Assembly: GCA_963678705.1 (NCBI GenBank) | Contig: OY783204.1 | Location: 17,122,759-17,186,758, forward strand | DNA: 64,000 nucleotides | Direction: 5' to 3' | DNA from: Panorpa germanica | Taxonomy: Eukaryota; Arthropoda; Insecta; Mecoptera; Panorpidae | In this document: positions 1 to 60,534 of the stretch, one piece after another | How the letters are laid out: every line of letters begins with the position of its first letter | How positions within the stretch are numbered: the stretch's first letter is position 1 | Position numbers and translations under genes: made by a program | The notes under the pieces: generated by a model | What the model saw: the letters and a program-made list of their open reading frames with translations, nothing else | Databases searched by the model: none | Told to the model about the DNA's origin: nothing

Positions 1-430
1 GCATAACTTATACGCGTGTGTATTCCTGGAAATGAACGTAAACAACTGCACTTGTGTTATTGTTTACGAGTGAACTTTCTAGAACCAAATACTACGCGTA
101 TGGAGTGGAACGTCATAGAACTAGACGGAAGGTCAAACAGCGTATCTGGATAATTATAGGAATATTCGGGAAAGTCAGGGGTGTCGTGACCAAAGGTAGT
201 CTGCTGCGTAGACCTCGGATATAAAAGGAGCGAGCATCGCGTCGCGAGTCAGTTTTTACAACAGCAGTCAGACCGCAAGAAAACATCAGCCAGTAAAACT
301 AATAAGTGAAATAATAAACCGTAATAATTGTAAAGTAGTTGTAATTGTTTTTGCGTTAATAAATAAAGTTTATAAAAGTGTCAATCCTTCTTTTAATTTG
401 AATTGTGGCTATTTCTAAATATAAGTTACA
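1..430 (+). mobile_element. LTR-like regulatory relic (possible solo LTR, cut by window start)
   Basis: A TATA box (TATAAAAG, 220-227) is followed by a GC-rich start-like stretch (231-260), then AATAAA-type signals at 313-318 and near 359. The stretch stops around GTTACA at 430. This layout of promoter, short transcribed region and poly(A) signal is that of an LTR of the gypsy or BEL kind. No primer-binding site, coding part or second copy is visible, so it could instead be the promoter and first exon of an ordinary gene. It is a fossil if it is an LTR. Confidence 0.3.
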
Positions 431-786
431 ACGCGACTAAATAGTGTAAACAATTGCATCCGCTCGGCAATCAACTAAAAAGAACCCCGTCGTCGCTAAG
501 TAAAATTGTAACAATATTTAAATAATTGAATGTGACGTAAACAGTGTTAAATTAAATATTCAATGATCAATTGAAACTATATAAAATGCGTAACAAAGGT
601 ATTGCTTTTACCAACGCAATACTGAACAAAGTGTCACTTTTAATTGTCATGTTTTATTAGTGACTACTCAATAATATAAAATTAAAAATTCAAAGTTTTG
701 TCAATAAATTGATCTTAAATCATGTTTATCATGAACAATACTGAGATTTTACGAAAACGTTTCTTGAAAATTTAAAAGGTAGTTAG
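431..786. other. Unassigned AT-rich spacer
   Basis: No coding frame, RNA gene or recognisable repeat end is seen. The stretch near 655-700 (TGACTACTCAATAATATAAA) recurs at 1078-1100, so part of it is a local duplication. Confidence 0.4.
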
Positions 787-1034
787 TGGTTGATTCTGGT
801 CCCATTAACAAACTGTCAGATCCTTCTCTTGTATACAGTTTACAGAGATATATACCGTTAGCTAGAACTAAAACTTGTAGAACTGGGTTAAAGGAGATCC
901 AAAAAATTTTATCAACTATAATCAAAATTAAAAATAATCATTGCAAAATTCCAACTCACGTCTATAAAATTAATCTTATTGTGCATTCTCTCATCAAGCT
1001 ATTTGAGATTTTTTGTTTTACTGACTCGACATAA
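787..1034 (+). pseudogene. I-like LINE C-terminal fragment
   Basis: The frame reads IKIKNNHCKIPTHVYKINL, which resembles IRIKSNHCKTPAHLYKINI in the better preserved I-like LINE relic at 54002-54838. The first part (about 787-895) is repeated at 10657-10777. No start, zinc knuckle or full domain is left. It is a relic of the linker between RNase H and the zinc knuckle of a LINE second ORF. The 5' part before the recognisable motif could belong to another repeat. Confidence 0.4.
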
Positions 1035-1421
1035 TTAATAAATGAAGCAGTATTTTCATTTTTGTTAAAAGTGTTTAGTGACTACTCAATATTATAAAAT
1101 TAGGAGTTCGAAGTTTTATTAATTAATTGAGCTTAAATTTTGTATCTCAAGAATAATGCAGTTAAAATTTTAGGTAAAAATTATGAAAATTGACAAAGTT
1201 ACAAAACTTTGAAGTGAAATGTTTCTTAGAAAATGTTTCCACTCAATTAATTACTTATTTAGTATTGTTTATTATTATTAAAATAAAAGCTTAATCATTT
1301 GATTTATTTAAAAATAACTTTGAACTTCACTGATAACAGTTAAGTATCATTCCCACTCACTGCTTTAATTTTATTTTGAGTTTTAAATTAAAAATATTAA
1401 ATTAAGAAAAACTATATTATA
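1035..1421. other. Unassigned AT-rich spacer
   Basis: Low-complexity A/T-rich sequence without coding potential. It ends at the A (1421) that borders the 3' end of the Helitron. Confidence 0.4.
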
Positions 1422-1451
1422 CTAGCTGACCCGGCCACGCGTTGCTGTGGC
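1422..1451 (-). other. Helitron 3' terminus: hairpin and CTAG end
   Basis: On the minus strand GCCAC (1451-1447) pairs with GTGGC (1438-1434) around an 8-nt loop. Twelve nucleotides follow, ending in CTAG at 1425-1422. A hairpin about 10-12 nt before a CTRR end is the usual Helitron transposition terminator. Confidence 0.85.
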
Positions 1452-1791
1452 TAACGTTTTTGGCATATTACATTGTTGTAAACTATTTAAGAGGAACGGT
1501 AGGAGAACATCAGACATGGGCACTACCATGCTTCTTTACATAGATGTCATTTGTAAAAAAAACATGGCGACCTTCATGACTGATTTTATACTACCGTTAC
1601 CCCTTATTACAATGAAATTATTATTTACGAACGAAGACGAAAACGTTAAAGCTGGTATAAAAATTTACTGGTTTGGGATTTGAAGGGGAAGGACTTTAAA
1701 CACAATTCATTAAAATTTTCGTATAGTTGATTTAAAGCAAAAATCAATACAAAAGAATTAAATTTAAAATTCATTATCATTTTTATTCAAG

Positions 1792-1797
1792 TTTGTA
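1792..1797 (-). terminator. Helitron gene poly(A) signal
   Basis: TTTATT on the plus strand reads AATAAA on the minus strand, about 124 nt downstream of the RepHel stop at 1921. It is the first canonical hexamer after the gene and lies inside the element. Confidence 0.5.
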
Positions 1798-1920
1798 ACA
1801 AATGAGTACATTACGAAGTTTTTAGTAAATAACATGTAACACTCAAACTTATAAATGAGGTAGGTAGGGTGGCAACAATAATATTTATTATTCTGAATTA
1901 TAAATACTTTCAATTTCAAT

Positions 1921-4900
1921 TTAATGTAGCACCAATTGGTGCACAATATTTTTGGTTAACCTGTCTTTAGCTAACACAAATAGGTTTGACGGTTTTCCTA
2001 CACGTGAACATGCAACATATAGCTGCCCATGAGAAAAACATGGATTTTCCAAATGTAAACCACAAATGGACATTGTTTGGCCTTGAGACTTATTTATAGA
2101 CATGGCAAAAGCTAAACGAATTGGAAACTGTAATCTTCTAAAGGGTATGGTAGAATCTGACGGTATCATTGGAATACGTGGCAATAGGACCACTTTCCCT
2201 TTAAACTTTCCACTTAAAATAGTTGCTTCAATAATATTTCCGGTGATCTTTTTGATGACCAAACGCGTACCGTTGCATAATTGAGGTGGATTCAAATTAC
2301 GCAGGAGAATAATAGGTGAACCTATCTTTAATCGAAGATTATGTGGTGGCATTCCAGGTATATCTAGTGAATTTAAAAATTCAATTGGAAAATTTACACT
2401 ATCATTTTCATTAACAACAGTATCTATTGATTTGAAAGACATCAGATTGCCTGGTAACAACTGTTGTATCTGGAAGTTAATTTCGTCAACATCAACATTT
2501 TTGGCTGCCAAAATAGCCCGATGACTGAGCCAGTTATGATTTAAGTAATTACTCTGTATATCCGGAAAAATACTCTGAATCAATTCATTTTTTCCCTGAA
2601 AAACAGTGCAGAAATTGTCTGGCAGTTTAATGCATTGCGTATTTGGTTGCAGTTCTATTTTACCGTTCCCAATATCTAGTAATTGTTCGGAAAATATTTG
2701 TGCTGATGGATCATTTTGCAATCGTACGCGCATGTTTATGGTCAATGGAAGTGTTTCAACATTTCGCCATAAGAATGATTGTTTCAAACATGCATTAATT
2801 TCATCCGTGAAAGTGGAGCGAGGTATAACTGGTAGGGTCTGGCGGAAATCACCAGACAAAAGTAAAAGAGCACCACCGAAAAGTTTATCATTGCCGTTTA
2901 AATCTTGCATAGTTCTATGCAATGCTTCGAGTGAATATTTGTGAGCCATTGTGCACTCATCCCAAATTATAATTGAACTCTTCCGCAACACTGCAGCTAT
3001 TCCACTATTTTTTTTTATGATACATATTGCATTTGGTTTATGATGAATGTCCAATGGCAGCTTGAATGTTGAATGTGCCGTTCGTCCACTATCTAGCAAA
3101 GTAGCCGCTATGCCTGACGATGCAACTGCCAATGCAATTTTCTGTTGTGACCGTATTTTGGCAAGAATCAACGATATTAAAAATGTCTTACCGGTTCCAC
3201 CTGGTGCGTCCAAGAAAAAAAAACCGCCTTGTTCAGCAGCAACAGCCAGCATAATCCGATCATAAATAATTTTTTGTTCTGCTGTCAGTAATGGCTCGCT
3301 CTTCGCGATAATTGTTGCTAAATTACCTTGGTCAAATTGTTTTTCTCGTTGTAAATCGGTGTTGACTAAATCCATGGCTGGGCGATCAGGTGATGGCATA
3401 CCATAATGATTAAGTGGTAAATTTGAAATTAAAACACATAAATCCTCGATTAACAGTAACGCTTCATTATACATCTCTGGCGTATAATCTATGTTTTGGT
3501 ATTGATCTGTTTGTCTAATTCGGTGCAATATGTCTTCTGTCATACAATTTTTATATTTTTCCCACAAAGTTTGTGCTTGCGATGGATAACATGTCGTCAA
3601 AATAATTGCAAACAGCTGACGAATATTATTGGGCGTTGATGTTAACGCAGCATCAGCAAGCGTTAAGTCCCAATGGTTATCATCTTCTAGCAATTGCAGT
3701 TCACGACATGCAACTTTGTATGTATTGAATACTCGACCATTAACTGTTCGCAGAAATTCAAAAGACGTTGGTCCGGGAACATTCACCAATAACAAACGTA
3801 AATAGAAGCACTCGCTTTGCTTTGGATGTACCGTGTAAAGTCGCCCCAATGTCTTAGCTTTGAATATGCCTGTGATGGAAGGATGTGGTTTTCCTTGCTT
3901 TCGTGGTTCCCATTTTTTACCGGATTTGTTCCATGTGAAATAACGCGGAACATCACTATATTTCAATGTTTTTGCGAATTGGCCAAAAATATCAGATTGT
4001 TGACACAATGTAAAAAATTCAGTTAGTGTCGTTTTTGGAGCCTCAAGCGCTCTTTGGAGAACATTTCCTTCAGTAAAGTATACACGTTGACCGTTTTCAA
4101 GATGTATTGCTAGATGCTGGACAGAAGGGTCTCTTTCGTGTATGGGAAAGCTAAGAATATGCCAAATAGCTTCGTTGCTGCTAATGTACCTACCCATTTG
4201 GTATCGTACTATTTCGTCATTTTTATTTACATTCTGTACTTCAAATATAGCTAAATCATTGCCTTTATTTACATATTTACAAATGTACTTAATAGATTTT
4301 ACAGAACTGCAAAGCTCAACATTGATATGAGCCTGATAAGTTTTTGAAAGTAATGGTGAGTATGGTACCACCCACTGATTATCAAGTTCAACTTGATTTG
4401 TAAAATTCGGCAGTCGTATTGTGAATGTGTGGCCACCATTCTCAGTATTTCTACGGCGATACATTGGATAACCGTCAATATCCGTGATAGTGTCATTCGT
4501 GTGCGGCTTTGGGAAATTTTTCTTACATTTTCCATTTTCCATGCATGGTGACGTTATGTTGAAAGCACCGCACGGCCCGTGGATCATGTGTTTGGTAACA
4601 ATATCAAATAATTCTTGATCAATTGATGGGTCTGGAATTTCGGCTGATATTATTTGATCAATTTCTTCTGGACGGATTTTATCTTGAAGCCAAATTAAAA
4701 TGTGGGCATGAGGCAAACCTCGCTTTTGCCACTCAATCGAATACAGCCAACAACGTGTGATACCAAAAACTGAATATTTAACAATAAAATCAATTAAGGA
4801 TTTCAATTTTTGTTTAAACACACGTGCAGTTATATCATGACGATGAAGTGCTTGTTGTCCTGGTGATAGTAAAGTTTGTATCTCTTTCCAATTTGGATTA

Positions 4901-6480
4901 CATGTGAATGTAATAAACAAATCCGGTCGGCCGTAATGACGTACGTAAGTCATCGCATCTTGTATGTATTCCTGCATGTTCCGTGGACTGCCGATGTAGC
5001 TTGAAGGTAAAATGAAAGCATTACCGATGTCATTGGGGTTTAAATTTCCGTCGATGTTTCCAACAACAGCATCTCGTAAGTGAATGTATTCTTCTGATCG
5101 TAATTTAGCCTGGTTATATCGAAGAAATCGCAAGCGTTCGCTTTCAACCTTAGCATACATATCAACAATGTACTGATGGAATAGCTGACGATATCGAAGG
5201 ATATAGTTGTCCTGATTTAGTCTAACCATCAATCGGTGTGCGTAGTAGTTCATAGAACTAACTTTTTTATTTCCATTAGCGCCTAAAAAAATAAAGAATA
5301 AAATGAAAAAAGAAATCAAAATCCGTTCATACAGTTAGGAAATACATAGTTAATAGTCAAATTTACCGGTATTTGGATCACACTGTTTGATTCTAATATG
5401 ATATTCATCCTGTCCTTGCCAAAATATTAATGGATATTGTAGTGCATCATATGAACGGTGAAGATCTGAAATCGTACTGACAGTGTTGTCTCGCCGTGTA
5501 ATTTTTATAGCTCTGTTGTCAACTGGATCACCAACCATAATAACAGCAACCTCGTCAACAGTTGGAGCATTGAATCTACCAGCATTTTCACCTAATGGTA
5601 CTTTGTCGGCTTTTATGACGATTTGATAGTTGTCATTTTGCAATCGTGGCGAAACTCTTTTAAACAATCGAATTAGTTGATTCTGATCTTCTAAAAAATT
5701 TTCCAGCAACATCACGATTGCTCTTTCCTCTGCTTGTTCAATGAAATTATACTGGCACCGAGTTGTTACGCGCTCTTCACAATTGCCCATAAAATAAATT
5801 TGGAGAAATTTCGAATCATTATCAGGCATCGGCATCAATGATCCGATTTTATGGTACACTTGGCCTTGTATTTTGAATGTAGTTTCAAAATTACGTCCAT
5901 GGGATGCGAGATCGCAAATTTTAGTTGCCCCAAATGACGTCATTTGGAAGCAAGAATTAAATTTGCGTATCTTACGCAAAAATAATTTTGAATCATCTGA
6001 ATCACCAGCAAGAAGGGATAATAAAGGTTCCGGCGGAGTGGGTAGAGGTGACAGCACAACTTTTCCCGATGCGCAGCACATGCCGGGTGTTTCATTTCGA
6101 AATTTCAATGCCTGACAATATTGGCATACTTTATCCATTGCACCGATAGCAATTTTTGAATGCGCAGAGTAGTTAATATCTGGTGCATATTCGAAAGCAA
6201 GACGAACAAATGATGCACGTGTTAATGAGCGGCTGATCCGCTGCCTCTGTCGTTCTCGTACTCGTGCTGTAGCTATGTTTCGTTCTCGTGCCGCTCTTGT
6301 TCTTGCAATATTCTGTCGCAGACGTTCGTCACGCTGTTCTTGACATTCTTGTGCACGACGCTCTACATTTGCTGCATTTCTTATTGTGATTTGTTCTGCC
6401 GACTGATGAGCTCTTTCAACGCGTTTGCGTCGTGCCTTTGTGCTCCTCGCGTTGTTGAGGTTAGATTTCTTCGGTGGCAT
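1921..6480 (-). CDS. Helitron Rep-helicase protein (RepHel), two coding exons
   Basis: The protein nicks and unwinds DNA for rolling-circle-type transposition. Exon 1 is 6480-5367 and exon 2 is 5282-1921. The 84-bp phase-1 intron (5366-5283) has a GTAAAT donor and a TTTTTTTAG acceptor, and splicing gives about 1491 residues, a usual RepHel length. The Arg-rich N-terminus (1-80) is followed by a Cys pair motif (C119, C122, CC135-136). The HUH nuclease motif appears as PHAHIL (563-565), with the two catalytic Tyr in YICKY (704, 708). Helicase motifs are GGTGKT (1066-1071), IIIWDE (1142-1147), GDFRQTLPV (1182-1190), SINKSQGQT (1433-1441) and LYVACSR (1459-1465). All frames are open. The intron call is by inspection: it removes a stop and keeps the frame. 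Without splicing the gene would be two separate ORFs. Confidence 0.9.
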
Positions 6481-6484
6481 TTGA

Positions 6485-6590
6485 CTGAAAAAAAAAATAT
6501 AGAAAAAAAGAAGAAAAAAAAACTGAAAAACACGCTATTATAGCGCATTGAAACAATATATATAATGATAAATTATGTGATAATACTTAC
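6485..6590 (-). other. Probable 5' UTR intron of the Helitron gene
   Basis: On the minus strand GTAAGT at 6590-6585 is a consensus donor, and a long pyrimidine tract ending TTTTTCAG or TTTTTTCAG stops at 6485, four nucleotides before the ATG. The same layout occurs in both palindrome arms (left arm 19693-19798). It is inferred by eye only. Confidence 0.55.
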
Positions 6591-6659
6591 ATGTAAAATT
6601 CACTGTATTTCGCTTTACTACAAACTAAATTTAACCTGTACTTTAGACGTTTGAGATTA

Positions 6660-6720
6660 ATACAATATGTTTAAAGATTATATATATAGGTTACAACTGT
6701 TTACTATTTAATATCATGCG
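6660..6720 (-). promoter_or_regulatory. Possible Helitron promoter
   Basis: A TATATATATAATC run (minus strand, about 6690-6677) lies roughly 90-100 bp upstream of the putative 5' UTR intron donor. It is the only TATA-like stretch between the 5' terminus and the coding start. The region is AT-rich, so this is weak. Confidence 0.3.
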
Positions 6721-7021
6721 ACTAATATAAGTATAAACAATAATATGCAGTTTCTGGTAGTAAACATGTGTCAGCGTTCTTAGATCTTAGTGCCGTGTGA
6801 CTATGAGTCATCCATTACGCATCGGGTGGCTGGTATTTGGATATAACAAATAATTAATAGACAAATAATTAGCAATAAGATAAATAAATTGAGATTTAAG
6901 GTATCCTATCTTTCAAGCTGGGTCAAACTGCACACGGTGTACAAATTTCATTAAAATCGGTGAAGTAGTTTAGGAGTCCATCGAGGACAACACAGTGACA
7001 CGTAATTTATATATATTAAGA

Positions 7022-12185: not shown

Positions 12186-12307
12186 TTGAAGCTAGCTATT
12201 TTCTAAAAATCTTATGAATTTGTCTATAGTCGCGTCATCTATATGTCATCCTACGAACTTATTGAGTGATGTGTTAGACCATTAGCCCGGGAACTTTAGA
12301 CTTTTAC

Positions 12308-13265
12308 CTGACATGAGGGCCGGTAGTTCTAATTTTTGGATATGTTTTAAAGTTAGGGCTGCTAATGAAAACTCCAAGTTATTCAACACGGGCGACGTCG
12401 GCGCGCGCCGCCATCTTGGAAAAATGGCGGCCAAAAACTGTTTTTCAGAAATATCTCGTTACTAATGCGTCCTACTATAAAAATAGTTATTATCAAACTT
12501 ATACAGGACTCAATTCTCTACAAGTTTTGTTTATAATATTTTTTTGTATGTCTCACAGTGACGGAGCTGCAAAATAGGACACCTCAATGAAAATTTTAAA
12601 ATATTTCAATTTTGAGTTCAATTTTTTTATATTTATTTGTTATATATTATAAATGAACTATTAATATACAAACTGTTTACTGTTCATGCATTGCTTACTC
12701 ATTTCCACGCCACCCACTATGAGGTAGAGCATATGCGCGTTTTTCCGAGGTTTTCCCAATAGGAAAATCCACAGGAATACCCGATTTTATACAATTTTGT
12801 TTTATTCATTTTCATACGTTAATTATTCCTCCTCTATCTTTAATATATACGATTAACGTTGCCCTTAGTCCCGTGAATCTCCACAACAACAGAAAACGTT
12901 TCTTCTTCTTCATCTTCACTGTTAAGCATAACTTCTGGTACATTTTCGCAGGATTGTCCATTACAATATCCACAGATAACGGAGCACTTGAATCCAGCTT
13001 TTCTACATACACACTTGCTGCCACAATCTTTTTTACACTTACAAGAAATGTAGTGGAGCCTGAGGAGCTGGATCCTTTGTCGGTATCACTGGAATAAGCG
13101 TATTATCACAACGTTTCCAACCCCAGTCTAGCGGATTCTTGTCATTTCCATACCATCCTTGTACGTCGCCGGTATTAGATAACTTGGGATTTTCATTAAC
13201 AGCCCTAACTTTAAAACATATCCAAAAATTAGAACTACCGGCTCTCATGTCAGGTAAGTGTCTTT
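12308..13265. repeat. Inverted duplication around a coding relic
   Basis: About 90 bp at 12310-12400 reappears reverse-complemented at 13165-13260; GACATGAGxGCCGGTAGTTC followed by the TTTTTGGATATGTTTTAAAG tract is matched almost base for base. The right arm is coding sequence of the Cys-rich relic on the minus strand, and the left arm encodes the same peptide on the plus strand. The arms could be terminal repeats of a foldback element, or one exon piece duplicated in inverse orientation. Flanking target duplications are not seen. Confidence 0.65.
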
Positions 13266-18226: not shown

Positions 18227-18510
18227 TTTTTTTTTATTAATTTACAGTGTGTGTCGTTAGACTTTACATTCTTTCAATATTAAATCACGTAATTACATCT
18301 CATTGCTAACTTAAAACTATTCTAAAATTTTTTAAAATTCCAACAGCAATGTGTGATTTTTTTTACTCTTGTTCCTAAGTTTTCTTGCTCTTTACTCCTC
18401 ATTGTTTCACTACCTTTACTATTTTCTTCTTGGCTCAATCTCCGCCATCCACCTCTTGTCCTCCTTACCTCCTCTCCGCAAATCCTCTATTTTCTGAACT
18501 GGAGTTTAAC
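18227..18510 (-). mobile_element. R1-like LINE 3' tail, 5'-truncated
   Basis: The sequence matches the LINE tails at 29796-30510 and 50958-51942: CTCCGCAAATCCTCTATTTT, CCACCTCTTGTxCT and TGGAGTTTAACTxTTTCC. The T-run at 18227-18238 would be its A-rich tail. No clean target duplication is seen. Confidence 0.55.
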
Positions 18511-18941
18511 TATTTCCAAATTTATTATTGAATTGAATTAATATGAATTTGACTTTTCTTGTAGTTATTAAACTATTATATGCATTAAAAAATATTTTTA
18601 ACAGGCAAATAGTTATTTAATTTGGAATTAAAAAATTCATGTTTAAAGGTACAGTCCCGATAATATTACCCCTCCTATATTTTGTTTTGCCGAGAGTTAA
18701 ATTTGTAGCATTGGCAGTCCGTCCCGTACCTCCTTAACGATCCAATGACTCAATTAATATCTGATGTTCCAGTATTCCCCAGACGACGAACGAATTACAT
18801 TTATTAATTAAAAAATAAATAAAAGTATTTTTAACTATAGAAAACAAATATATGCTCATTAAAAATTGATCATTAGTTATAAATTCTTGAGTTTGTTCCA
18901 AATGGAATACGTTATCATTAGTATAAGTTTCATAGAGTTAA

Positions 18942-19261: not shown

Positions 19262-22200
19262 TCTTAATATATATAAATTACGTGTCACTGTGTTGTCCTC
19301 GATGGACTCCTAAACTACTTCACCGATTTTAATGAAATTTGTACACCGTGTGCAGTTTGACCCAGCTTGAAAGATAGGATACCTTAAATCTCAATTTATT
19401 TATCTTATTGCTAATTATTTGTCTATTAATTATTTGTTATATCCAAATACCAGCCACCCGATGCGTAATGGATGACTCATAGTCACACGGCACTAAGATC
19501 TAAGAACGCTGACACATGTTTACTACCAGAAACTGCATATTATTGTTTATACTTATATTAGTCGCATGATATTAAATAGTAAACAGTTGTAACTTATATA
19601 TATAATCTTTAAACATATTGTATTAATCTCAAACGTCTAAAGTACAGGTTAAATTTAGTTTGTAGTAAAGCGAAATACAGTGAATTTTACATGTAAGTAT
19701 TATCACATAATTTATCATTATATATATTGTTTCAATGCGCTATAATAGCGTGTTTTTCAGTTTTTTTTTCTTCTTTTTTTCTATATTTTCTTTTTCAGTC
19801 AAATGCCACCGAAGAAATCTAACCTCAACAAAGCGAGGAGCACAAAGGCACGACGCAAACGCGTTGAAAGAGCTCATCAGTCGGCAGAACAAATCACAAT
19901 AAGAAATGCAGCAAATGTAGAGCGTCGTGCACAAGAATGTCAAGAACAGCGTGACGAACGTCTGCGACAGAATATTGCAAGAACAAGAGCGGCACGAGAA
20001 CGAAACATAGCTACAGCACGAGTACGAGAACGACAGAGGCAGCGGATCAGCCGCTCATTAACACGTGCATCATTTGTTCGTCTTGCTTTCGAATATGCAC
20101 CAGATATTAACTACTCTGCGCATTCAAAAATTGCTATCGGTGCAATGGATAAAGTATGCCAATATTGTCAGGCATTGAAATTTCGAAATGAAACACCCGG
20201 CATGTGCTGCGCATCGGGAAAAGTTGTGCTGTCACCTCTACCCACTCCGCCGGAACCTTTATTATCCCTTCTTGCTGGTGATTCAGATGATTCAAAATTA
20301 TTTTTGCGTAAGATACGCAAATTTAATTCTTGCTTCCAAATGACGTCATTTGGGGCAACTAAAATTTGCGATCTCGCATCCCATGGACGTAATTTTGAAA
20401 CTACATTCAAAATACAAGGCCAAGTGTACCATAAAATCGGATCATTGATGCCGATGCCTGATAATGATTCGAAATTTCTCCAAATTTATTTTATGGGCAA
20501 TTGTGAAGAGCGCGTAACAACTCGGTGCCAGTATAATTTCATTGAACAAGCAGAGGAAAGAGCAATCGTGATGTTGCTGGAAATTTTTTTAGAAGATCAG
20601 AATCAACTAATTCGATTGTTTAAAAGAGTTTCGCCACGATTGCAAAATGACAACTATCAAATCGTCATAAAAGCCGACAAAGTACCATTAGGTGAAAATG
20701 CTGGTAGATTCAATGCTCCAACTGTTGACGAGGTTGCTGTTATTATGGTTGGTGATCCAGTTGACAACAGAGCTATAAAAATTACACGGCGAGACAACAC
20801 TGTCAGTACGATTTCAGATCTTCACCGTTCATATGATGCACTACAATATCCATTAATATTTTGGCAAGGACAGGATGAATATCATATTAGAATCAAACAG
20901 TGTGATCCAAATACCGGTAAATTTGACTATTAACTATGTATTTCCTAACTGTATGAACGGATTTTGATTTCTTTTTTCATTTTATTCTTTATTTTTTTAG
21001 GCGCTAATGGAAATAAAAAAGTTAGTTCTATGAACTACTACGCACACCGATTGATGGTTAGACTAAATCAGGACAACTATATCCTTCGATATCGTCAGCT
21101 ATTCCATCAGTACATTGTTGATATGTATGCTAAGGTTGAAAGCGAACGCTTGCGATTTCTTCGATATAACCAGGCTAAATTACGATCAGAAGAATACATT
21201 CACTTACGAGATGCTGTTGTTGGAAACATCGACGGAAATTTAAACCCCAATGACATCGGTAATGCTTTCATTTTACCTTCAAGCTACATCGGCAGTCCAC
21301 GGAACATGCAGGAATACATACAAGATGCGATGACTTACGTACGTCATTACGGCCGACCGGATTTGTTTATTACATTCACATGTAATCCAAATTGGAAAGA
21401 GATACAAACTTTACTATCACCAGGACAACAAGCACTTCATCGTCATGATATAACTGCACGTGTGTTTAAACAAAAATTGAAATCCTTAATTGATTTTATT
21501 GTTAAATATTCAGTTTTTGGTATCACACGTTGTTGGCTGTATTCGATTGAGTGGCAAAAGCGAGGTTTGCCTCATGCCCACATTTTAATTTGGCTTCAAG
21601 ATAAAATCCGTCCAGAAGAAATTGATCAAATAATATCAGCCGAAATTCCAGACCCATCAATTGATCAAGAATTATTTGATATTGTTACCAAACACATGAT
21701 CCACGGGCCGTGCGGTGCTTTCAACATAACGTCACCATGCATGGAAAATGGAAAATGTAAGAAAAATTTCCCAAAGCCGCACACGAATGACACTATCACG
21801 GATATTGACGGTTATCCAATGTATCGCCGTAGAAATACTGAGAATGGTGGCCACACATTCACAATACGACTGCCGAATTTTACAAATCAAGTTGAACTTG
21901 ATAATCAGTGGGTGGTACCATACTCACCATTACTTTCAAAAACTTATCAGGCTCATATCAATGTTGAGCTTTGCAGTTCTGTAAAATCTATTAAGTACAT
22001 TTGTAAATATGTAAATAAAGGCAATGATTTAGCTATATTTGAAGTACAGAATGTAAATAAAAATGACGAAATAGTACGATACCAAATGGGTAGGTACATT
22101 AGCAGCAACGAAGCTATTTGGCATATTCTTAGCTTTCCCATACACGAAAGAGACCCTTCTGTCCAGCATCTAGCAATACATCTTGAAAACGGTCAACGTG

Positions 22201-23718
22201 TATACTTTACTGAAGGAAATGTTCTCCAAAGAGCGCTTGAGGCTCCAAAAACGACACTAACTGAATTTTTTACATTGTGTCAACAATCTGATATTTTTGG
22301 CCAATTCGCAAAAACATTGAAATATAGTGATGTTCCGCGTTATTTCACATGGAACAAATCCGGTAAAAAATGGGAACCACGAAAGCAAGGAAAACCACAT
22401 CCTTCCATCACAGGCATATTCAAAGCTAAGACATTGGGGCGACTTTACACGGTACATCCAAAGCAAAGCGAGTGCTTCTATTTACGTTTGTTATTGGTGA
22501 ATGTTCCCGGACCAACGTCTTTTGAATTTCTGCGAACAGTTAATGGTCGAGTATTCAATACATACAAAGATGCATGTCGTGAACTGCAATTGCTAGAAGA
22601 TGATAACCATTGGGACTTAACGCTTGCTGATGCTGCGTTAACATCAACGCCCAATAATATTCGTCAGCTGTTTGCAATTATTTTGACGACATGTTATCCA
22701 TCGCAAGCACAAACTTTGTGGGAAAAATATAAAAATTGTATGACAGAAGACATATTGCACCGAATTAGACAAACAGATCAATACCAAAACATAGATTATA
22801 CGCCAGAGATGTATAATGAAGCGTTACTGTTAATCGAGGATTTATGTGTTTTAATTTCAAATTTACCACTTAATCATTATGGTATGCCATCACCTGATCG
22901 CCCAGCCATGGATTTAGTCAACACCGATTTACAACGAGAAAAACAATTTGACCAAGGTAATTTAGCAACAATTATCGCGAAGAGCGAGCCATTACTGACA
23001 GCAGAACAAAAAATTATTTATGATTGGATTATGCTGGCTGTTGCTGCTGAACAAGGCGGTTTTTTTTTCTTGGACGCACCAGGTGGAACCGGTAAGACAT
23101 TTTTAATATCGTTGATTCTTGCCAAAATACGGTCACAACAGAAAATTGCATTGGCAGTTGCATCGTCAGGCATAGCGGCTACTTTGCTAGATGGTGGACG
23201 AACGGCACATTCAACATTCAAGCTGCCATTGGACATTCATCATAAACCAAATGCAATATGTATCATAAAAAAAAATAGTGGAATAGCTGCAGTGTTGCGG
23301 AAGAGTTCAATTATAATTTGGGATGAGTGCACAATGGCTCACAAATATTCACTCGAAGCATTGCATAGAACTATGCAAGATTTAAACGGCAATGATAAAC
23401 TTTTCGGTGGTGCTCTTTTACTTTTGTCTGGTGATTTCCGCCAGACCCTACCAGTTATACCTCGCTCCACTTTCACGGATGAAATTAATGCATGTTTGAA
23501 ACAATCATTCTTATGGCGAAATGTTGAAACACTTCCATTGACCATAAACATGCGCGTACGATTGCAAAATGATCCATCAGCACAAATATTTTCCGAACAA
23601 TTACTAGATATTGGGAACGGTAAAATAGAACTGCAACCAAATACGCAATGCATTAAACTGCCAGACAATTTCTGCACTGTTTTTCAGGGAAAAAATGAAT
23701 TGATTCAGAGTATTTTTC
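19262..23718 (+). mobile_element. Helitron left arm (5' part only) of the palindrome
   Basis: It starts TCTTAATATATATAAATTAC after an A (19261) and follows copy 1 nearly base for base up to the position matching 2565 of copy 1. It then breaks off inside the helicase domain, about 1.14 kb short of the 3' terminus. The 3' hairpin and CTAG end are missing. Differences from the right arm are few, about eight visible coding changes in 4.5 kb between the two arms. Confidence 0.93.
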
Positions 23719-23735
23719 TGGTATCTGGAAGTTAA
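19803..23735 (+). pseudogene. Truncated Helitron RepHel gene, left arm
   Basis: Exons 19803-20916 and 21001-23735 are joined by the same 84-bp phase-1 intron, and a probable 5' UTR intron lies at 19693-19798. The product would be about 1282 residues. HUH motif, YICKY, Walker A, Walker B and GDFRQTLPV are kept. The last helicase motifs (SINKSQGQT and LYVACSR in the whole copy) are lost, and the final residues LVSGS come from the junction. Private changes compared with the right arm include Lys for Asn near residue 10 and Trp for Arg shortly before Walker A. Nicking might survive in principle but helicase function should not. Confidence 0.85.
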
Positions 23736-23765
23736 TTTCGTTGTTGTATCTGGAAGTTAATTTCG
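23719..23765. repeat. Palindrome junction with 20-bp direct repeat
   Basis: GTATCTGGAAGTTAATTTCG occurs at 23721-23740 and again at 23746-23765, separated by TTGTT. The second copy is the normal start of the right arm and the first is an extra copy between the arms. Left-arm homology ends at 23718 and right-arm homology starts at 23742. A filler copied from the neighbouring arm suggests template switching or end joining. Confidence 0.85.
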
Positions 23766-26700
23766 TCAACATCAACATTTTTGGCTGCCAAAATAGCCCG
23801 ATGACTGAGCCAGTTATGATTTAAGTAATTACTCTGTATATCCGGAAAAATACTCTGAATCAATTCATTTTTTCCCTGAAAAACAGTGCAGAAATTGTCT
23901 GGCAGTTTAATGCATTGCGTATTTGGTTGCAGTTCTATTTTACCGTTCCCAATATCTAGTAATTGTTCGGAAAATATTTGTGCTGATGGATCATTTTGCA
24001 ATCGTACGCGCATGTTTATGGTCAATGGAAGTGTTTCAACATTTCGCCATAAGAATGATTGTTTCAAACATGCATTAATTTCATCCGTGAAAGTGGAGCG
24101 AGGTATAACTGGTAGGGTCTGGCGGAAATCACCAGACAAAAGTAAAAGAGCACCACCGAAAAGTTTATCATTGCCGTTTAAATCTTGCATAGTTCTATGC
24201 AATGCTTCGAGTGAATATTTGTGAGCCATTGTGCACTCATCCCAAATTATAATTGAACTCTTCCGCAACACTGCAGCTATTCCACTATTTTTTTTTATGA
24301 TACATATTGCATTTGGTTTATGATGAATGTCCAATGGCAGCTTGAATGTTGAATGTGCCGTTCGTCCACCATCTAGCAAAGTAGCCGCTATGCCTGACGA
24401 TGCAACTGCCAATGCAATTTTCTGTTGTGACCGTATTTTGGCAAGAATCAACGATATTAAAAATGTCTTACCGGTTCCACCTGGTGCGTCCAAGAAAAAA
24501 AAACCGCCTTGTTCAGCAGCAACAGCCAGCATAATCCGATCATAAATAATTTTTTGTTCTGCTGTCAGTAATGGCTCGCTCTTCGCGATAATTGTTGCTA
24601 AATTACCTTGGTCAAATTGTTTTTCTCGTTGTAAATCGGTGTTGACTAAATCCATGGCTGGGCGATCAGGTGATGGCATACCATAATGATTAAGTGGTAA
24701 ATTTGAAATTAAAACACATAAATCCTCGATTAACAGTAACGCTTCATTATACATCTCTGGCGTATAATCTATGTTTTGGTATTGATCTGTTTGTCTAATT
24801 CGGTGCAATATGTCTTCTGTCATACAATTTTTATATTTTTCCCACAAAGTTTGTGCTTGCGATGGATAACATGTCGTCAAAATAATTGCAAACAGCTGAC
24901 GAATATTATTGGGCGTTGATGTTAACGCAGCATCAGCAAGCGTTAAGTCCCAATGGTTATCATCTTCTAGCAATTGCAGTTCACGACATGCATCTTTGTA
25001 TGTATTGAATACTCGACCATTAACTGTTCGCAGAAATTCAAAAGACGTTGGTCCGGGAACATTCACCAATAACAAACGTAAATAGAAGCACTCGCTTTGC
25101 TTTGGATGTACCGTGTAAAGTCGCCCCAATGTCTTAGCTTTGAATATGCCTGTGATGGAAGGATGTGGTTTTCCTTGCTTTCGTGGTTCCCATTTTTTAC
25201 CGGATTTGTTCCATATGAAATAACGCGGAACATCACTATATTTCATTGTTTTTGCGAATTGGCCAAAAATATCAGATTGTTGACACAATGTAAAAAATTC
25301 AGTTAGTGTCGTTTTTGGAGCCTCAAGCGCTCTTTGGAGAACATTTCCTTCAGTAAAGTATACACGTTGACCGTTTTCAAGATGTATTGCTAGATGCTGG
25401 ACAGAAGGGTCTCTTTCGTGTATGGGAAAGCTACGAATATGCCAAATAGCTTCGTTGCTGCTAATGTACCTACCCATTTGGTATCGTACTATTTCGTCAT
25501 TTTTATTTACATTCTGTACTTCAAATATAGCTAAATCATTGCCTTTATTTACATATTTACAAATGTACTTAATAGATTTTACAGAACTGCAAAGCTCAAC
25601 ATTGATATGAGCCTGATAAGTTTTTGAAAGTAATGGTGAGTATGGTACCACCCACTGATTATCAAGTTCAACTTGATTTGTAAAATTCGGCAGTCGTATT
25701 GTGAATGTGTGGCCACCATTCTCAGTATTTCTACGGCGAGACATTGGATAACCGTCAATATCCGTGATAGTGTCATTCGTGTGCGGCTTTGGGAAATTTT
25801 TCTTACATTTTCCATTTTCCATGCATGGTGACGTTATGTTGAAAGCACCGCACGGCCCGTGGATCATGTGTTTGGTAACAATATCAAATAATTCTTGATC
25901 AATTGATGGGTCTGGAATTTCGGCTGATATTATTTGATCAATTTCTTCTGGACGGATTTTATCTTGAAGCCAAATTAAAATGTGGGCATGAGGCAAACCT
26001 CGCTTTTGCCACTCAATCGAATACAGCCAACAACGTGTGATACCAAAAACTGAATATTTAACAATAAAATCAATTAAGGATTTCAATTTTTGTTTAAACA
26101 CACGTGCAGTTATATCATGACGATGAAGTGCTTGTTGTCCTGGTGATAGTAAAGTTTGTATCTCTTTCCAATTTGGATTACATGTGAATGTAATAAACAA
26201 ATCCGGTCGGCCGTAATGACGTACGTAAGTCATCGCATCTTGTATGTATTCCTGCATGTTCCGTGGACTGCCGATGTAGCTTGAAGGTAAAATGAAAGCA
26301 TTACCGATGTCATTGGGGTTTAAATTTCCGTCGATGTTTCCAACAACAGCATCTCGTAAGTGAATGTATTCTTCTGATCGTAATTTAGCCTGGTTATATC
26401 GAAGAAATCGCAAGCGTTCGCTTTCAACCTTAGCATACATATCAACAATGTACTGATGGAATAGCTGACGATATCGAAGGATATAGTTGTCCTGATTTAG
26501 TCTAACCATCAATCGGTGTGCGTAGTAGTTCATAGAACTAACTTTTTTATTTCCATTAGCGCCTAAAAAAATAAAGAATAAAATGAAAAAAGAAATCAAA
26601 ATCCGTTCATACAGTTAGGAAATACATAGTTAATAGTCAAATTTACCGGTATTTGGATCACACTGTTTGATTCTAATATGATATTCATCCTGTCCTTGCC

Positions 26701-27760
26701 AAAATATTAATGGATATTGTAGTGCATCATATGAACGGTGAAGATCTGAAATCGTACTGACAGTGTTGTCTCGCCGTGTAATTTTTATAGCTCTGTTGTC
26801 AACTGGATCACCAACCATAATAACAGCAACCTCGTCAACAGTTGGAGCATTGAATCTACCAGCATTTTCACCTAATGGTACTTTGTCGGCTTTTATGACG
26901 ATTTGATAGTTGTCATTTTGCAATCGTGGCGAAACTCTTTTAAACAATCGAATTAGTTGATTCTGATCTTCTAAAAAAATTTCCAGCAACATCACGATTG
27001 CTCTTTCCTCTGCTTGTTCAATGAAATTATACTGGCACCGAGTTGTTACGCGCTCTTCACAATTGCCCATAAAATAAATTTGGAGAAATTTCGAATCATT
27101 ATCAGGCATCGGCATCAATGATCCGATTTTATGGTACACTTGGCCTTGTATTTTGAATGTAGTTTCAAAATTACGTCCATGGGATGCGAGATCGCAAATT
27201 TTAGTTGCCCCAAATGACGTCATTTGGAAGCAAGAATTAAATTTGCGTATCTTACGCAAAAATAATTTTGAATCATCTGAATCACCAGCAAGAAGGGATA
27301 ATAAAGGTTCCGGCGGAGTGGGTAGAGGTGACAGCACAACTTTTCCCGATGCGCAGCACATGCCGGGTGTTTCATTTCGAAATTTCAATGCCTGACAATA
27401 TTGGCATACTTTATCCATTGCACCGATAGCAATTTTTGAATGCGCAGAGTAGTTAATATCTGGTGCATATTCGAAAGCAAGACGAACAAATGATGCACGT
27501 GTTAATGAGCGGCTGATCCGCTGCCTCTGTCGTTCTCGTACTCGTGCTGTAGCTATGTTTCGTTCTCGTGCCGCTCTTGTTCTTGCAATATTCTGTCGCA
27601 GACGTTCGTCACGCTGTTCTTGACATTCTTGTGCACGACGCTCTACATTTGCTGCATTTCTTATTGTGATTTGTTCTGCCGACTGATGAGCTCTTTCAAC
27701 GCGTTTGCGTCGTGCCTTTGTGCTCCTCGCGTTGTTGAGGTTAGATTTCTTCGGTGGCAT
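23732..27760 (-). pseudogene. Truncated Helitron RepHel gene, right arm
   Basis: Exons are 27760-26647 and 26562-23732 with the 84-bp intron 26646-26563, giving about 1314 residues. The nuclease motif, both Tyr and helicase motifs through GDFRQTLPV are present; the C-terminal helicase motifs are missing because the arm ends early, and the stop comes from the junction. Private changes include MSRRR for MYRRR, IRSFP for ILSFP, TMKY for TLKY and RYFIWN for RYFTWN. With the left arm it shares three residues that differ from copy 1 (LLEIF, TYKDAC, LLDGG). Confidence 0.85.
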
Positions 27761-28301
27761 TTGACTGAAAAAAAAAATATAGAAAAAAAGAAGAAAAAAA
27801 AAATGAAAAACACGCTATTATAGCGCATTGAAACAATATATATAATGATAAATTATGTGATAATACTTACATGTAAAATTCACTGTATTTCGCTTTACTA
27901 CAAACTAAATTTAACCTGTACTTTAGACGTTTGAGATTAATACAATATGTTTAAAGATTATATATATAGGTTACAACTGTTTACTATTTAATATCATGCG
28001 ACTAATATAAGTATAAACAATAATATGCAGTTTCTGGTAGTAAACATGTGTCAGCGTTCTTAGATCTTAGTGCCGTGTGACTATGAGTCATCCATTACGC
28101 ATCGGGTGGCTGGTATTTGGATATAACAAATAATTAATAGACAAATAATTAGCAATAAGATAAATAAATTGAGATTTAAGGTATCCTATCTTTCAAGCTG
28201 GGTCAAACTGCACACGGTGTACAAATTTCATTAAAATCGGTGAAGTAGTTTAGGAGTCCATCGAGGACAACACAGTGACACGTAATTTATATATATTAAG
28301 A
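23742..28301 (-). mobile_element. Helitron right arm (5' part only) of the palindrome
   Basis: On the minus strand it starts TCTTAATATATATAAATTAC at 28301, after an A (T at 28302 on the plus strand), and runs to 23742, matching copy 1 from 7021 down to about 2462. Roughly 1.04 kb of the 3' end, with the terminator hairpin, is missing. It is the mirror of the left arm but reaches about 100 bp further. Confidence 0.93.
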
Positions 28302-29795: not shown

Positions 29796-30510
29796 TTTAT
29801 TCATTTATGATATTAATTGTGTGCCTTTCGGCTTTACAATCTACATTATTATATTTCTTAATACATTTCATATAAATTCAAAGTTAAAACTAAACTTAAA
29901 CTATTCTAGACTATTACTACTTCGAAGTGTACTTTCTATCTTCATCTATCACCTCTTGCCTTCCTTGTCTCCTCTCGACAAACCCTCTATTATCTTTTCA
30001 CTATCCTTCCTGCCTTCTCTCTTCGTTTTCACTTCTCCAATTATGTATTACAGGCATAAACGCTCTATCTTTACTATTTCTTCTTGACTCTCTTACTTTA
30101 CTATTTCTTCTTGACTCTCTTCCTTTACTATTTTATTATTGTCTCTATCTCCGTCATCCACCTCTTGTACTTATCTCCTTTCCGCAAATCCTCTATTTTT
30201 CTGGACTGAAGTTTAACTGTTTCCTCGCTACTTCTTTCTTTCTCCTGCTTCCCTTCATTACCTCTTTTAGTACTTCCTCTCTCTTCATGTTCCTTATGCA
30301 ACCCAGCCACAAGCTTATTTATTGTCCGGTTTTTTCTTTCCTTTTTTCTATTTCCGCCATCCACCTCTTTCCTTCACTGCCTCCCTTTAATAGCTGGCCA
30401 ATATTCATTTCGCTCACTACTTTTTCCTTACACTCAAACTTAATGTGCTCCAGTGTTTCGTCCTCCGTTCCGCACACTCTACACATTCTTTCCTCACTAC
30501 TTGCCCAGTA
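29796..30510 (-). mobile_element. R1-like LINE 3' tail with 11-bp target duplication
   Basis: TGTTTCTTATA stands at both borders (29785-29795 and 30511-30521). Inside, the minus strand matches the LINE tail at 50958-51942, including CTCCGCAAATCC, the Lys/Glu-rich coding end and CCTTTCGGCTTTACAATCTA near its 3' end. It is a 5'-truncated insertion with degraded coding sequence. It landed in the 3' end of the mariner-like relic. Confidence 0.7.
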
Positions 30511-30552: not shown

Positions 30553-31070
30553 TTAGTTAGTTTTGAAGATCAAATGAGGTAGGTGACGTCCCCCATTCTC
30601 CATACACTGAGTAAACCGATTTCTGGCGTTTGTCATGACTCGTGCCAGTACAGCAGGCGTTATGTTGACAATTTCTTCCTGGATGTTGGTCTTTAAATCT
30701 TGTAGGGTCCTTGGACAGTTAACATAAACACGGGATTTTAAAAAATCCCATAGAAAAAAATCACAAAGGGCCAAATCGGGAGAGCGGGAAGGCCACTCCA
30801 AATCGCCACTTATTGAGATGAGGCGCTGTGGAAGTGTTTTCTCAAAACCGCCATCGATGCTCTTAAAATGTGTGCTATTGCACTGTCTTATTGGAACCAA
30901 GTGTCCTCTAACTCTCTCACTCTGCGCTGAGGGACTCCAGTTCTTTGTCTTGTCGTACTTGCAGTTTGTCTGAACGTAGTAACCCACGTAACAATTGATT
31001 TCCGGTCCACGACTGAGGCTGACAGGACTAAATTAAAACGATTCCGAAAGGCGCGCTGGATTGCGATCAC
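30553..31070 (-). pseudogene. Mariner-like transposase relic
   Basis: The N-terminal frame (31070-30888) has IQRAFRNRFNLVLSA, then DRKSIVTWVTTFRQT. This is the helix-turn-helix DNA-binding domain (DUF4817 type) of insect mariner-like transposases. The second frame (30987-30553) has WPSRSPDLALCDFFLWDFLK, the conserved PDLAPCDFFLW region holding a catalytic Asp, and ends GGRHLPHLIFKTN. The stretch between them, with the first catalytic Asp, is missing, and the two parts are in different frames. It is dead. Confidence 0.7.
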
Positions 31071-31399: not shown

Positions 31400-31719
31400 T
31401 AAGGTCTTGATAGCATATTTGAATAATGTATAGTTTCATAAAGGGTTTGGTTTACGTTATTTATTCTATTGATGTTTTAGTACTGGATTGAATTAATTTG
31501 AATTACTTATTTACAACATGTACTCGTATGTACAAATCTGAGAACAACACGTTGCCACTGATGAGGGGTGATGCAACTTTGAATTCTTTATTAGTATATT
31601 CTTTATTTCCTCGGTAACGATGTATGGGACACGTCATGTAACATATCGAGCTGCAGTTGTAGTTGCAGTTTTAAATCAGTCAGGCGGTAACTTCCCAACA
31701 CGAAACATTTGAAATCAAA
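31400..31719 (+). promoter_or_regulatory. OR-A upstream block and initiator
   Basis: The stretch GTTTGGTTTACGxTATTTxTTCTAT and the run ending ACTTATTTACAACAT are shared with 38550-38645, 46910-46975, 48000-48070 and 60270-60345. Closer to the gene, AGCTGCAGTTGTAGTTG and AAATCAGTCAGGCGGTAAC are shared with OR-B, OR-C and the stub at 47770. TCAGTC at 31676-31681 fits the arthropod initiator; its A is 42 nt before ATG. No TATA box is at the expected spacing. Confidence 0.55.
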
Positions 31720-33867
31720 ATGTCGACTACTCTGTACGACGACTTGGAAACAGTTCTTAAATTAATTGAGATGGTGTTCAACATGGTCGGGATTAATATA
31801 TTTAGTTTTTATACGGAAACAAAACGTTGGAAAAGTAGGGTGCGGAAAATTCCTACGGTTTTAATTGTACTAACCCCACTAAGTGCAGTGGCGGCTTTTG
31901 TGTACAATAGGCACGATTACGTTAAAGGTATCGAAGCAGTATTTGCGATTTCTGGTGCTCTTCAAATTTTCAGTAAGCGCTTGATTATTCGACGAGTTTG
32001 CAATGATATTGTTGAATTTGTGGACAAATGCCGAATATTCAGGAGTAACCATGCTGGCGATATCGAAAATGCATTTACGTCACTGCCTTTCAACAAAATA
32101 GTTGCACGTCCGTCGCTTGTGATTAAATTATTCGTGTTGTTGTACTTAATAACTTTATCGGTGATGTACATTACCCCATTTTTCCTATTTGAACGAAGTT
32201 TACCGTTTCCTCTCTATTTACCAATTGGATCGCCATTGAAGACTCCTTTTTACCAACTGAATTACGTATTTACAGTAGCAGCGGTTTCTGTGTGCGTAAT
32301 ACTATCCATGGGAACAGAAGCTATTTTAATTTCTCTGGTTTCGGAATTTTATTTGCAGAGCCTCACTTTAAAATACAAGCTGACATCTCTTGGTGACGGG
32401 GAGGAAGATGGTCAAAGAATCAAGATTCGGGAGATCTGTCAGTTACACTGGGAACTAACATGGTATGTGTTAGTACATTTATTTATTGTTCCCATAAATG
32501 TTAACTTTCCCATAACGTTCATTTTATTTCGAAGCGGGATGCCACCGCATCTTGTGAATTTCTCCCAGACCGGCTTTGCATACGAGCTGAGATTCATCTA
32601 ACTACGGAAATGACGAAATATATTATTGTCTGTAAAAGTTTGGGCCCCATGCATATAAATTTAACATTTTTACTCACCATTTGTTATTTTTAAAAGTGAT
32701 ATTGATGATGAAATGAATTATACCTCCAGCGAATATTGAAAAAAATGGAATCTTTTAACTGTTAATATCTCTTATAATATAAAAAAATAATTGGATATTG
32801 AAGTTCCTGATAGTCAACTCTATCAATTTATTGTACAGTTTTATAGAAATTAAGACGTAATACACAATTCTATGATATACAAACATAATAAATTAGTTCT
32901 GTTAAAAAACAATAGATTTTTACAGTTCAGTGAAGGATCTTAACAGCATCTTCTCCTCCTTGCTGCTGGTGCAGTTTTCCACAAGTTTTGCACTGATCTC
33001 GACCAGCCTTTTCATGTTCACCAGTCATTACTACTATTTCCTGGTTTATGCTGTCGTACTGATTCTACAGTTAGGCGTGTACTGTCTCTGCGGAGAAATC
33101 GTGAAAGATCAGGTAACTCATCTTAGTATTGAGCAGCATTTAAACATTACACACATTACCTTTAATGATTATCATTTTTCTAGTTTGAGAAACTCTTGTT
33201 TTCTTTGTACAACAACGAATGGTACAAAATGAATTTGAAAGACAAGAAGTCTTTAAATATTATGATGAGCTTCGCTCAGGGCGTCCCGACGTTGAAGGCT
33301 GTTGGATACGTGGAGTTATCCTGTGAGACTTACTTTCAGGTAATTTCTTTAGTATTGTGTTTAGTAAATATTAGTAAGCGTAAAATCAATGGGAAATCTT
33401 CATCACCATCAACATGGGTCTAGCGGCATTGTGGACCGCTGACCTATTATAAAACTTCTCTCTATTTCTTCCTATTAGCCGCGTTTGTCTTCCAATTTAT
33501 CATGCCAATTTTTGCAATCGCTTCATCCACTTGTTAACTCTCTCTTTCACTCCCACATCTTCTGGGTTGCCTTGCAAAGGTTATATTACGAGTATGATAT
33601 AGAATATTTTAATGGCAAATTGCTTCTTTTCAAAATCTGCAAGAGATCAGAATCAGTCTTCCTGGAAGTCCAAGTTTTCCGGTTTGTCCAAGAAAATAAC
33701 AAAGAAAATTGTTACACTGTAGATTTAGTAACGAAAAAACTTATCCAACACCTAACGCTCTTTTCACAGTCTCATCAAGCGATAACAGGAAATCCCCAGT
33801 ATCGTTTCAGAAAAGTCTTTAAACAATAATAATATTGGTTGTTTATTATAATTGAACGAAAACACAC

Positions 33868-47954: not shown

Positions 47955-48266
47955 TTAACTGCCGATAGCTAATTTGAATAATGTACCGTCTAATAACGAT
48001 TTTGGTTTACGTTATTTGTTCTATGAGGTTTTACTGCTTTATTGAATTTACTTAAATTACTTATTTACAAACATCTATATACAAATAATACCCTTTCTAC
48101 TGTTCTGGTTGATACAACTTTGCATTCATTAATATTATATTGTATACTACCAATCATTTGTAACGATTACGGGGACAGGTCGGCCTGTAACATGTCTAGC
48201 TGCACTTGCAGTTGTTGTTTTAAATCAGTCAGGCGATAACTAGAGAACAAGTAACATCAAATCAAA
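47955..48266 (+). promoter_or_regulatory. OR-B upstream block and initiator
   Basis: It has the same block order as in OR-A and OR-C, with AAATCAGTCAGGCGATAAC (TCAGTC at 48225-48230) about 40 nt before the ATG at 48267. GGTCGGCCTGTAACATGTCT is shared with OR-C. Confidence 0.55.
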
Positions 48267-54001: not shown

Positions 54002-54838
54002 TTATAATTTATAATTCAATTTTTCTAAATACTTCAATAATTCACTAATTAAATTTGAATCACTTAACAAAAATTTAGTATTGACGGGAACAGTTTTAAT
54101 CACATATAATATATCACTATTCAATTTTGATCTTTCTAAACTATAATTTATGCATTCAAATATAATATGATCCAAAGTTCCTTCTTCACCACATTGACAT
54201 CGATCGTCAGATTTAATATTAATTTTGTACAGGTGAGCTGGAGTTTTGCAATGATTACTTTTGATTCTGATTATAGTTGATATAATTTTGCGGAACTCAT
54301 TTCTAAACCATCTCTTCTTACTTAAATTTGGATGTAGCATATAATAATCTCTTCCTTTTAACTGACTTTTGTTAATGAAATCTGTGTTTCTCAACTTGAA
54401 GTTTATTTTTTGATTATATTAAAAATTTCATATGAATGTAATTTCTCAATTTCTAAATTTATTGATTCCTTTGACAATTTCGTTTTCTCTTATTCCACAA
54501 TGTCCTGGTATCCACATAAATTTTATGGTATTATTCTTATTTATTATATTGAAATACATCTCCTTAATTTTGCATGTCAAAATATCGTTATTTGATTTGT
54601 TATCATTAGAATTTAAATTTTTTAAAACACTTAAAGAATTCGTTATTATTATAATTTTATTATTGTTGATATTTTCATTAATTTCCAATGCTTGCTAATT
54701 TTTCACCAGTATAAGAGCAAACTTTGTTATTTAATTTAAATTTATAATATCTTAAATTTATTTGTTCATTTATAGCAAATCCTGCTTTATTTCTTTCTAA
54801 ATCAATGGATGCATCTGTATATATTATTTTATCTTTCT
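54002..54838 (-). pseudogene. I-like LINE fragment with RNase H and zinc knuckle
   Basis: The minus strand reads YTDASIDLERNKAGFAINEQ (54800 region), TNSLSVLKNL and MWIPGHCGIRENEI: the RNase H core with its Asp and His neighbourhood. It ends WFRNEFRKIISTIIRIKSNH and CQCGEEGTLDHIIFEC, a zinc knuckle. This RNase H plus C-terminal knuckle order is that of I-clade LINEs. Frames are broken by stops between domains. It is inserted in the OR-B 3' flank, since sequence homologous to the OR-C flank lies on both sides. Confidence 0.78.
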
Positions 54839-59940: not shown

Positions 59941-60534
59941 AACTTAAAGAATAATTATAATAATATTAAAACTTATAAATAATTGATTACAAATCTTCAT
60001 TCTACATATATGAAGTACCGTTTTCTATTCTCATTTAACTGCTGCTCTAGGCAACACTTAACATTTGTTGTATGATTAACCTTAAACACACGTAACTGTG
60101 TTTGACGGGTGATGATTTTATTGTCAAACATTCTGTCCTTAACTTAAAATTTAAGTTTTGCATTTGAAGTTTTTAATGATTTGAATTATTAATATCTCTG
60201 CAATAATATTGTTACTACTTAATAAATTTTAGTAATGATAGCTAATTTGAATAATGTATAGTCTAATAAAGGGTTTGGTTTACGCTATTTGTTCTATGAT
60301 GTTTTAGTAGTGGATTGAATTGATTTAAATTACTTATTTACAACATCTATATACAAATAATACCCTTTCTACTGCCTGGTTGATACAACTTTGCATTCAT
60401 TAATATTATATTGTATATTTCATTTGTAACGATTACTGGGAGAGGTCAGCCTGTAACATGTCTAGCTGCAGTTATAGTTGCATTTTTAAATCAGTCAGGC
60501 GGTAACTAGAGAACAAGGAACACATCAAATCAAA
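59941..60534 (+). promoter_or_regulatory. OR-C upstream block and initiator
   Basis: It is the longest preserved version of the shared upstream region, including the part seen alone at 45330-45590 (TTCTGTCCTTAACTT) and the TTGGTTTACGCTATTTGTTC motif. TCAGTC at 60491-60496 lies about 42 nt before the ATG at 60535. Confidence 0.55.

Follow-up and report, generated by a model that had tools for sequence, protein, structure and literature searches.

The window (that is, the whole 64-kb stretch of DNA analysed here) carries three near-identical pieces of one Helitron, all within 27 kb: a complete copy (copy C) and, 12 kb from it, two 5' parts (arms A and B) facing each other in a palindrome. Copy C, which the initial annotation left unmentioned, occupies 1422..7021 on the minus strand and comprises 5,600 bp, with a TC terminus preceded by A, a CTAG terminus followed by T and a predicted 3' hairpin (a stem-loop predicted with RNA parameters, ending 12 nt before the element end). 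Its RepHel looks intact and is made up of two long open frames, with a probable intron between them, as a T-rich tract and an AG suggest. No Pfam match was obtained for the first frame, and the second one matches, among others, Helitron_like_N, PIF1 and the Pif1 2B domain (PF14214, PF05970 and PF21530); HUH and two-tyrosine Rep motif strings are also present. The best solved match is Helraiser (7lcc; first frame, E 2.2e-25; second frame, E 1.5e-232), most of whose length is matched by the two frames together. In its TC/CTAG ends, 3' hairpin and A/T flanks, as well as in a RepHel with an HUH, two-tyrosine Rep and a PIF1-like helicase, copy C resembles a canonical Helitron of the Helraiser/Helibat1 kind, and it served as the yardstick for the element coordinates of both arms.

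The inverted pair of Helitron 5' parts was recovered by a self-comparison of the window. Arm A (19262..23718, plus strand) corresponds to element positions 1-4457 and arm B (23742..28301, minus strand) to positions 1-4560, read from 28301 down, with a 23-nt filler in between, so that the two facing 5' parts around a short junction, as first described, are found at these borders. Arms A and B differ at 9 of 4457 positions (ungapped) and by the 103 nt present in arm B only, which agrees with the earlier statement that they differ at several sites and in length; arm A differs from copy C at 7 of 4457 positions, and arm B at 8 of 4560. This inverted identity (99.8% over 4.46 kb) is not a chance match. 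Both outer edges are, again as initially annotated, intact 5' TC termini, each with an A before it on its own strand (ATTAAA in arm A, TATATA in arm B), and a host A precedes the 5' TC in all three copies in the window. At the other end, 1,143 bp of the 3' part are gone from arm A and 1,040 bp from arm B, and therefore neither arm has a 3' end. The CTAG/hairpin end was indeed absent from both when the window was searched with the last 150 bp of the element, whose sole full-length match is copy C (the other listed matches span 12-18 nt), as the initial annotation had it; its term "tail-to-tail" is correct for the orientation, although both tails are themselves missing. Measured against copy C, the two breakpoints lie 103 bp apart in element coordinates.

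In each arm, the N-terminal part of RepHel is an open frame of 394 aa, stop to stop (19749..20933, plus strand, in arm A; 26630..27814, minus strand, in arm B), nearly identical to the copy C frame, which itself matches Helraiser. The Rep and the first helicase part are encoded at 20949..23735 (plus strand, with a stop about 5 aa beyond the end of arm A) and at 23732..26614 (minus strand, with a stop about 2 aa beyond the end of arm B). Both arms retain the motif strings of Rep as well as the first domain of the helicase, but neither has a Pfam match to the Pif1 2B domain in its frames. The palindromic product cannot encode a full RepHel, and it lacks the 3' terminator.

Elsewhere in the window, three similar frames on the plus strand (31675-32601, 48255-49022 and 60490-61287) have Pfam 7tm_6 (odorant receptor) matches and form, with 85-89% DNA likeness over about 1.1 kb, a receptor gene cluster, of a type that points to an insect as the host. 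The minus strand carries one frame that matches zf-RVT weakly, below the cut-off (54002-54418), another one without a Pfam match (51284-52030), which presumably resembles a retroelement tail like the former, and a 159-aa frame, also without a Pfam match (30553-31032), which we take to resemble the end of a mariner-type transposase. A 101-nt inverted pair (12298-12398 and 13163-13263, 90% complementary and 764 nt apart) is possibly a small transposon with terminal inverted repeats.

Junction and outer flanks

The filler (23719..23741, assigned to neither strand) is templated for 21 of its 23 nt, since 23721-23741 equals element positions 4556-4536 in the orientation of arm B; in an exact-match map, the filler adds a second copy of the arm B end, at a period of 25 nt. 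The remaining 2 nt are either untemplated or the product of one mismatch. Together with the stretch found in arm B only (23742..23844, minus strand, 103 nt, element positions 4458-4560), the filler makes up a non-palindromic centre of 126 nt, or of 120 nt according to a mismatch-tolerant repeat finder. Such a templated filler looks like the outcome of repair synthesis with slippage, and the retrieved passages of PMC3907307 describe a junction with 16 bp inserted, composed of two pieces with matches in nearby sequence. For a strand that ends at 4560, 5-nt complements exist at 4525 and 4531, and the end of the filler has 3-4-nt complements in several places; at the switch point 4457, no perfect complements of 3-5 nt were found (positions 4301-4560 searched). 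A special hairpin at the breakpoints is unsupported, as the fold of this region in the intact copy is not better than that of its shuffles (z -0.02). Rfam returned 0 matches at gathering scores.

Outwards, the palindrome ends exactly at its TC termini: the left flank ends in ATTAAA and the right one starts with TATATA, which, once joined, read as a legal AT target. The flanking bases fit an A/T insertion for copy C and for both outer ends of the palindrome, although at these ends the same fit is predicted by any two ordinary insertions and is therefore non-discriminating. Neither outer flank is an inverse copy of the other (minus-strand matches of up to 16 nt within 2 kb on each side), which led us to reject a chromosomal fold-back, and also argues against a single read copied back; the initial annotation had already disfavoured a simple missed-adapter artefact, and this comparison adds further evidence to that effect. 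Between the flanks of A, B and C (1.4-2 kb compared per side) there is no mutual match except two left-right repeats, one of 112 nt (85%) and one of 46 nt, so a segmental duplication of the Helitron plus its surroundings was rejected too. The longer plus-strand match between the flanks, 18407-18517 with 30116-30224 (85%), represents a dispersed repeat that recurs in part at 51157-51265. An insertion of one Helitron into another was discarded as well, since the element is not continued past the outer ends, and nothing convincing emerged when the flanks were considered as the two halves of a single repeat, or of a single reading frame, that had been interrupted (the open stretches over the join measure 11-57 aa in the six frames).

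Apparent ages and origin of the palindrome

Over 4,457 positions (an ungapped count that ends at element position 4457), private changes amount to 4 in arm A, 5 in arm B and 3 in copy C. The apparent ages of the three are thus similar, and these counts do not discriminate between origin models. All nine coding changes are non-synonymous, where 0.78 would be expected per random change; since 0.78 to the ninth power is about 0.11 (hand calculation), purifying selection has left no sign since the insertions. Practically one source sequence seems to underlie the three copies, which would have drifted afterwards. When the changes of copy C are polarised by Helraiser, copy C seems to carry the derived state at G>S, where the Helraiser residue is G, and probably also at D>V, where it is E. 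Arms A and B have no clear derived change in common against C; nonetheless, I>N (element position 1323), where Helraiser has N in a gapped and uncertain alignment, may be ancestral in C, in which case one derived change would be common to A and B.

Which events, then, would leave two left ends and no right end? The options initially listed (template-switched replication, fusion by deletion and artefact) were the right set, but a fusion by deletion and an aberrant transposition remain close, the analyses do not decide between them, and the order in which they are given here is a matter of judgement. The best explanation, held tentatively and at a little short of an even chance, is that two opposed insertions, with their 5' ends outward, were fused by a central deletion. 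One young Helitron would have made two ordinary insertions, nearby and in opposite orientation; a later double-strand break, or a deletion at the hairpin centre, would have taken both tails and the intervening host DNA; and synthesis-dependent end joining would have closed the ends, leaving the 25-nt-period repeat at the junction. The two insertions, the loss of host DNA between them and the repair pathway are the parts that we infer. Only ordinary steps are needed, and the 5' ends look like normal ones made by Rep at A/T, as this origin predicts without any extra assumption. Furthermore, three copies of similar age within 27 kb make close-together insertions plausible here, there is neither a segmental duplication nor a clear derived change shared by A and B, and the filler is like those of repair junctions. 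On the other hand, two independent and uniform breakpoints would fall within 103 bp of each other with a probability of 0.036, an argument that would be weakened by a symmetric loss from an extruded hairpin; I>N, if ancestral, may give A and B that one shared derived change; and another insertion must have landed nearby, and correctly oriented. The latter is at odds with what the consulted sections of PMC4778049 report for Helraiser, namely that 701 retranspositions showed no clustering around donor sites.

A single aberrant transposition, by which a double-5' Helitron was inserted as one unit at a single AT site, is somewhat less probable in our judgement, and still a serious contender to the fusion by deletion. 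A strand carrying Rep at its 5' TC terminus would have been cut short near 4560; its 3' end would have snapped back near 4457 and primed self-copying, with run-off exactly at the Rep-capped 5' end; and the resulting self-complementary TC...GA strand would have been inserted between A and T by the two-tyrosine chemistry, to give A[TC...GA]T. This requires one insertion instead of two, the lack of clustering among those 701 retranspositions speaks for it, and it is in line with the short distance of 103 nt between the breakpoints, which recalls a fold-back loop (the same 0.036 under independent uniform breakpoints), with a filler that is slipped and templated, with a palindrome that stops at exact TC ends between differing flanks, with the legal AT target read across these flanks once joined, and with arms equal in apparent age (4 versus 5 private changes). 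The Helraiser system also lends it some ground, given that the left end is described as essential and the right one as not strictly required (PMC4778049, PMC5876387), and that truncated products occur (PMC4778049), as far as the retrieved portions of both articles go. However, the joining of a run-off 3' end to T is an assumption, none of the short complements (3-5 nt) is located at the switch point 4457, and the breakpoint region of the intact copy folds like its shuffles. Besides, neither such a product nor any double-5' palindromic Helitron was found, among the matches listed and in the excerpts these provide, by a literature search in open-licence PubMed Central.

An assembly or library artefact, i.e., a chimeric molecule or a wrong graph path joining two Helitron loci inside the repeat, appears improbable. 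Near-identical, multi-copy repeats are prone to misjoining, but the palindrome stops at the transposon ends and its flanks are not inverse copies, which does not fit one read copied back; each arm has its own private changes; and the 25-nt-period repeat would resemble repair synthesis rather than a plain chimera. Finally, the same junction would result from a rearrangement (an inversion, a translocation or template-switched replication) between two Helitron copies far from each other, with breaks at 4457 and 4560, and the filler fits template switching, but neither the double-3' reciprocal nor the second copy of the right flank expected from it is present in the 64-kb window, and we consider it very improbable.

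Comparison with related structures

The palindrome departs from a canonical Helitron in that its left end is present twice, its right end is missing and its helicase is incomplete: the 3' CTRR followed by T is found in copy C (CTAG, T) but in neither arm, and the hairpin upstream of the 3' end, predicted in copy C, belongs to the region that the arms lack. Each step of the proposed origins has near precedents. In Fusarium, according to the available passages of PMC5148889, there are FoHelis with several 5' termini, and an insertion in opposite orientation, followed by the loss of the inner termini, has been proposed for Helitrons of this fungus. Extra 5' ends and proposed composites of opposed insertions are thus common ground, although in these Helitron2-like elements the extra 5' pieces are typically <200 bp and accompany a single 3' end, whereas here there are two 4.5-kb arms and no 3' end. 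Human fold-back inverted duplications, which concern chromosomal arms (21 sequenced spacers, of 766-70,466 bp, in the excerpt consulted of PMC3907307), are similar in their inverted arms, their single-copy spacer and the short templated insertions at some junctions. In contrast, the arms described here end at transposon termini, the single-copy part measures 103 nt, and the inverse chromosomal sequence that a fold-back leaves beyond the repeat is limited to matches of up to 16 nt in the 2-kb flanks. The expression "tail-to-tail" in the retrieved text of PMC6927752 comes from the title of a reference on heat shock factor sites; this article, like PMC6544945, PMC5714489 and PMC3187698, contributed general background alone.

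Relatives of the second RepHel frame of copy C were also sought in two collections of viral and prokaryotic contigs, with 7 and 8 pattern stretches and 0 confirmed by tblastn, and a degenerate 5'-end pattern had 0 matches in either collection; null results from such collections say little about insects.

Meaning for the Helitron family

If the palindrome arose by one insertion, Rep would be able to join a non-canonical 3' end generated by run-off copying, and Helitrons would be able to insert through left ends alone, something testable in the Helraiser system. This would amount to a route by which a rolling-circle transposon without a 3' end produces self-complementary insertions, and might also create an anti-Helitron hairpin locus as a by-product.

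Some of the potential consequences are shared by the two leading origins. Inward transcription from both 5' ends could give rise to double-stranded RNA against the Helitron family. A similar form is known from Mu killer of maize, a partial inverted duplication of the MuDR transposase gene in which one transposon end is present twice, and for which a hairpin RNA has been proposed (PMC3440606, in the parts of the article retrieved). Mu killer derives from MuDR and not from a Helitron and, according to the same parts of that article (PMC3440606), it is for Mu killer that RNA silencing from such a type of locus has been reported. Whatever its origin, an inverted, truncated transposase gene near an intact-looking copy, as in this window, would be the type of locus able to start RNA silencing of the family.
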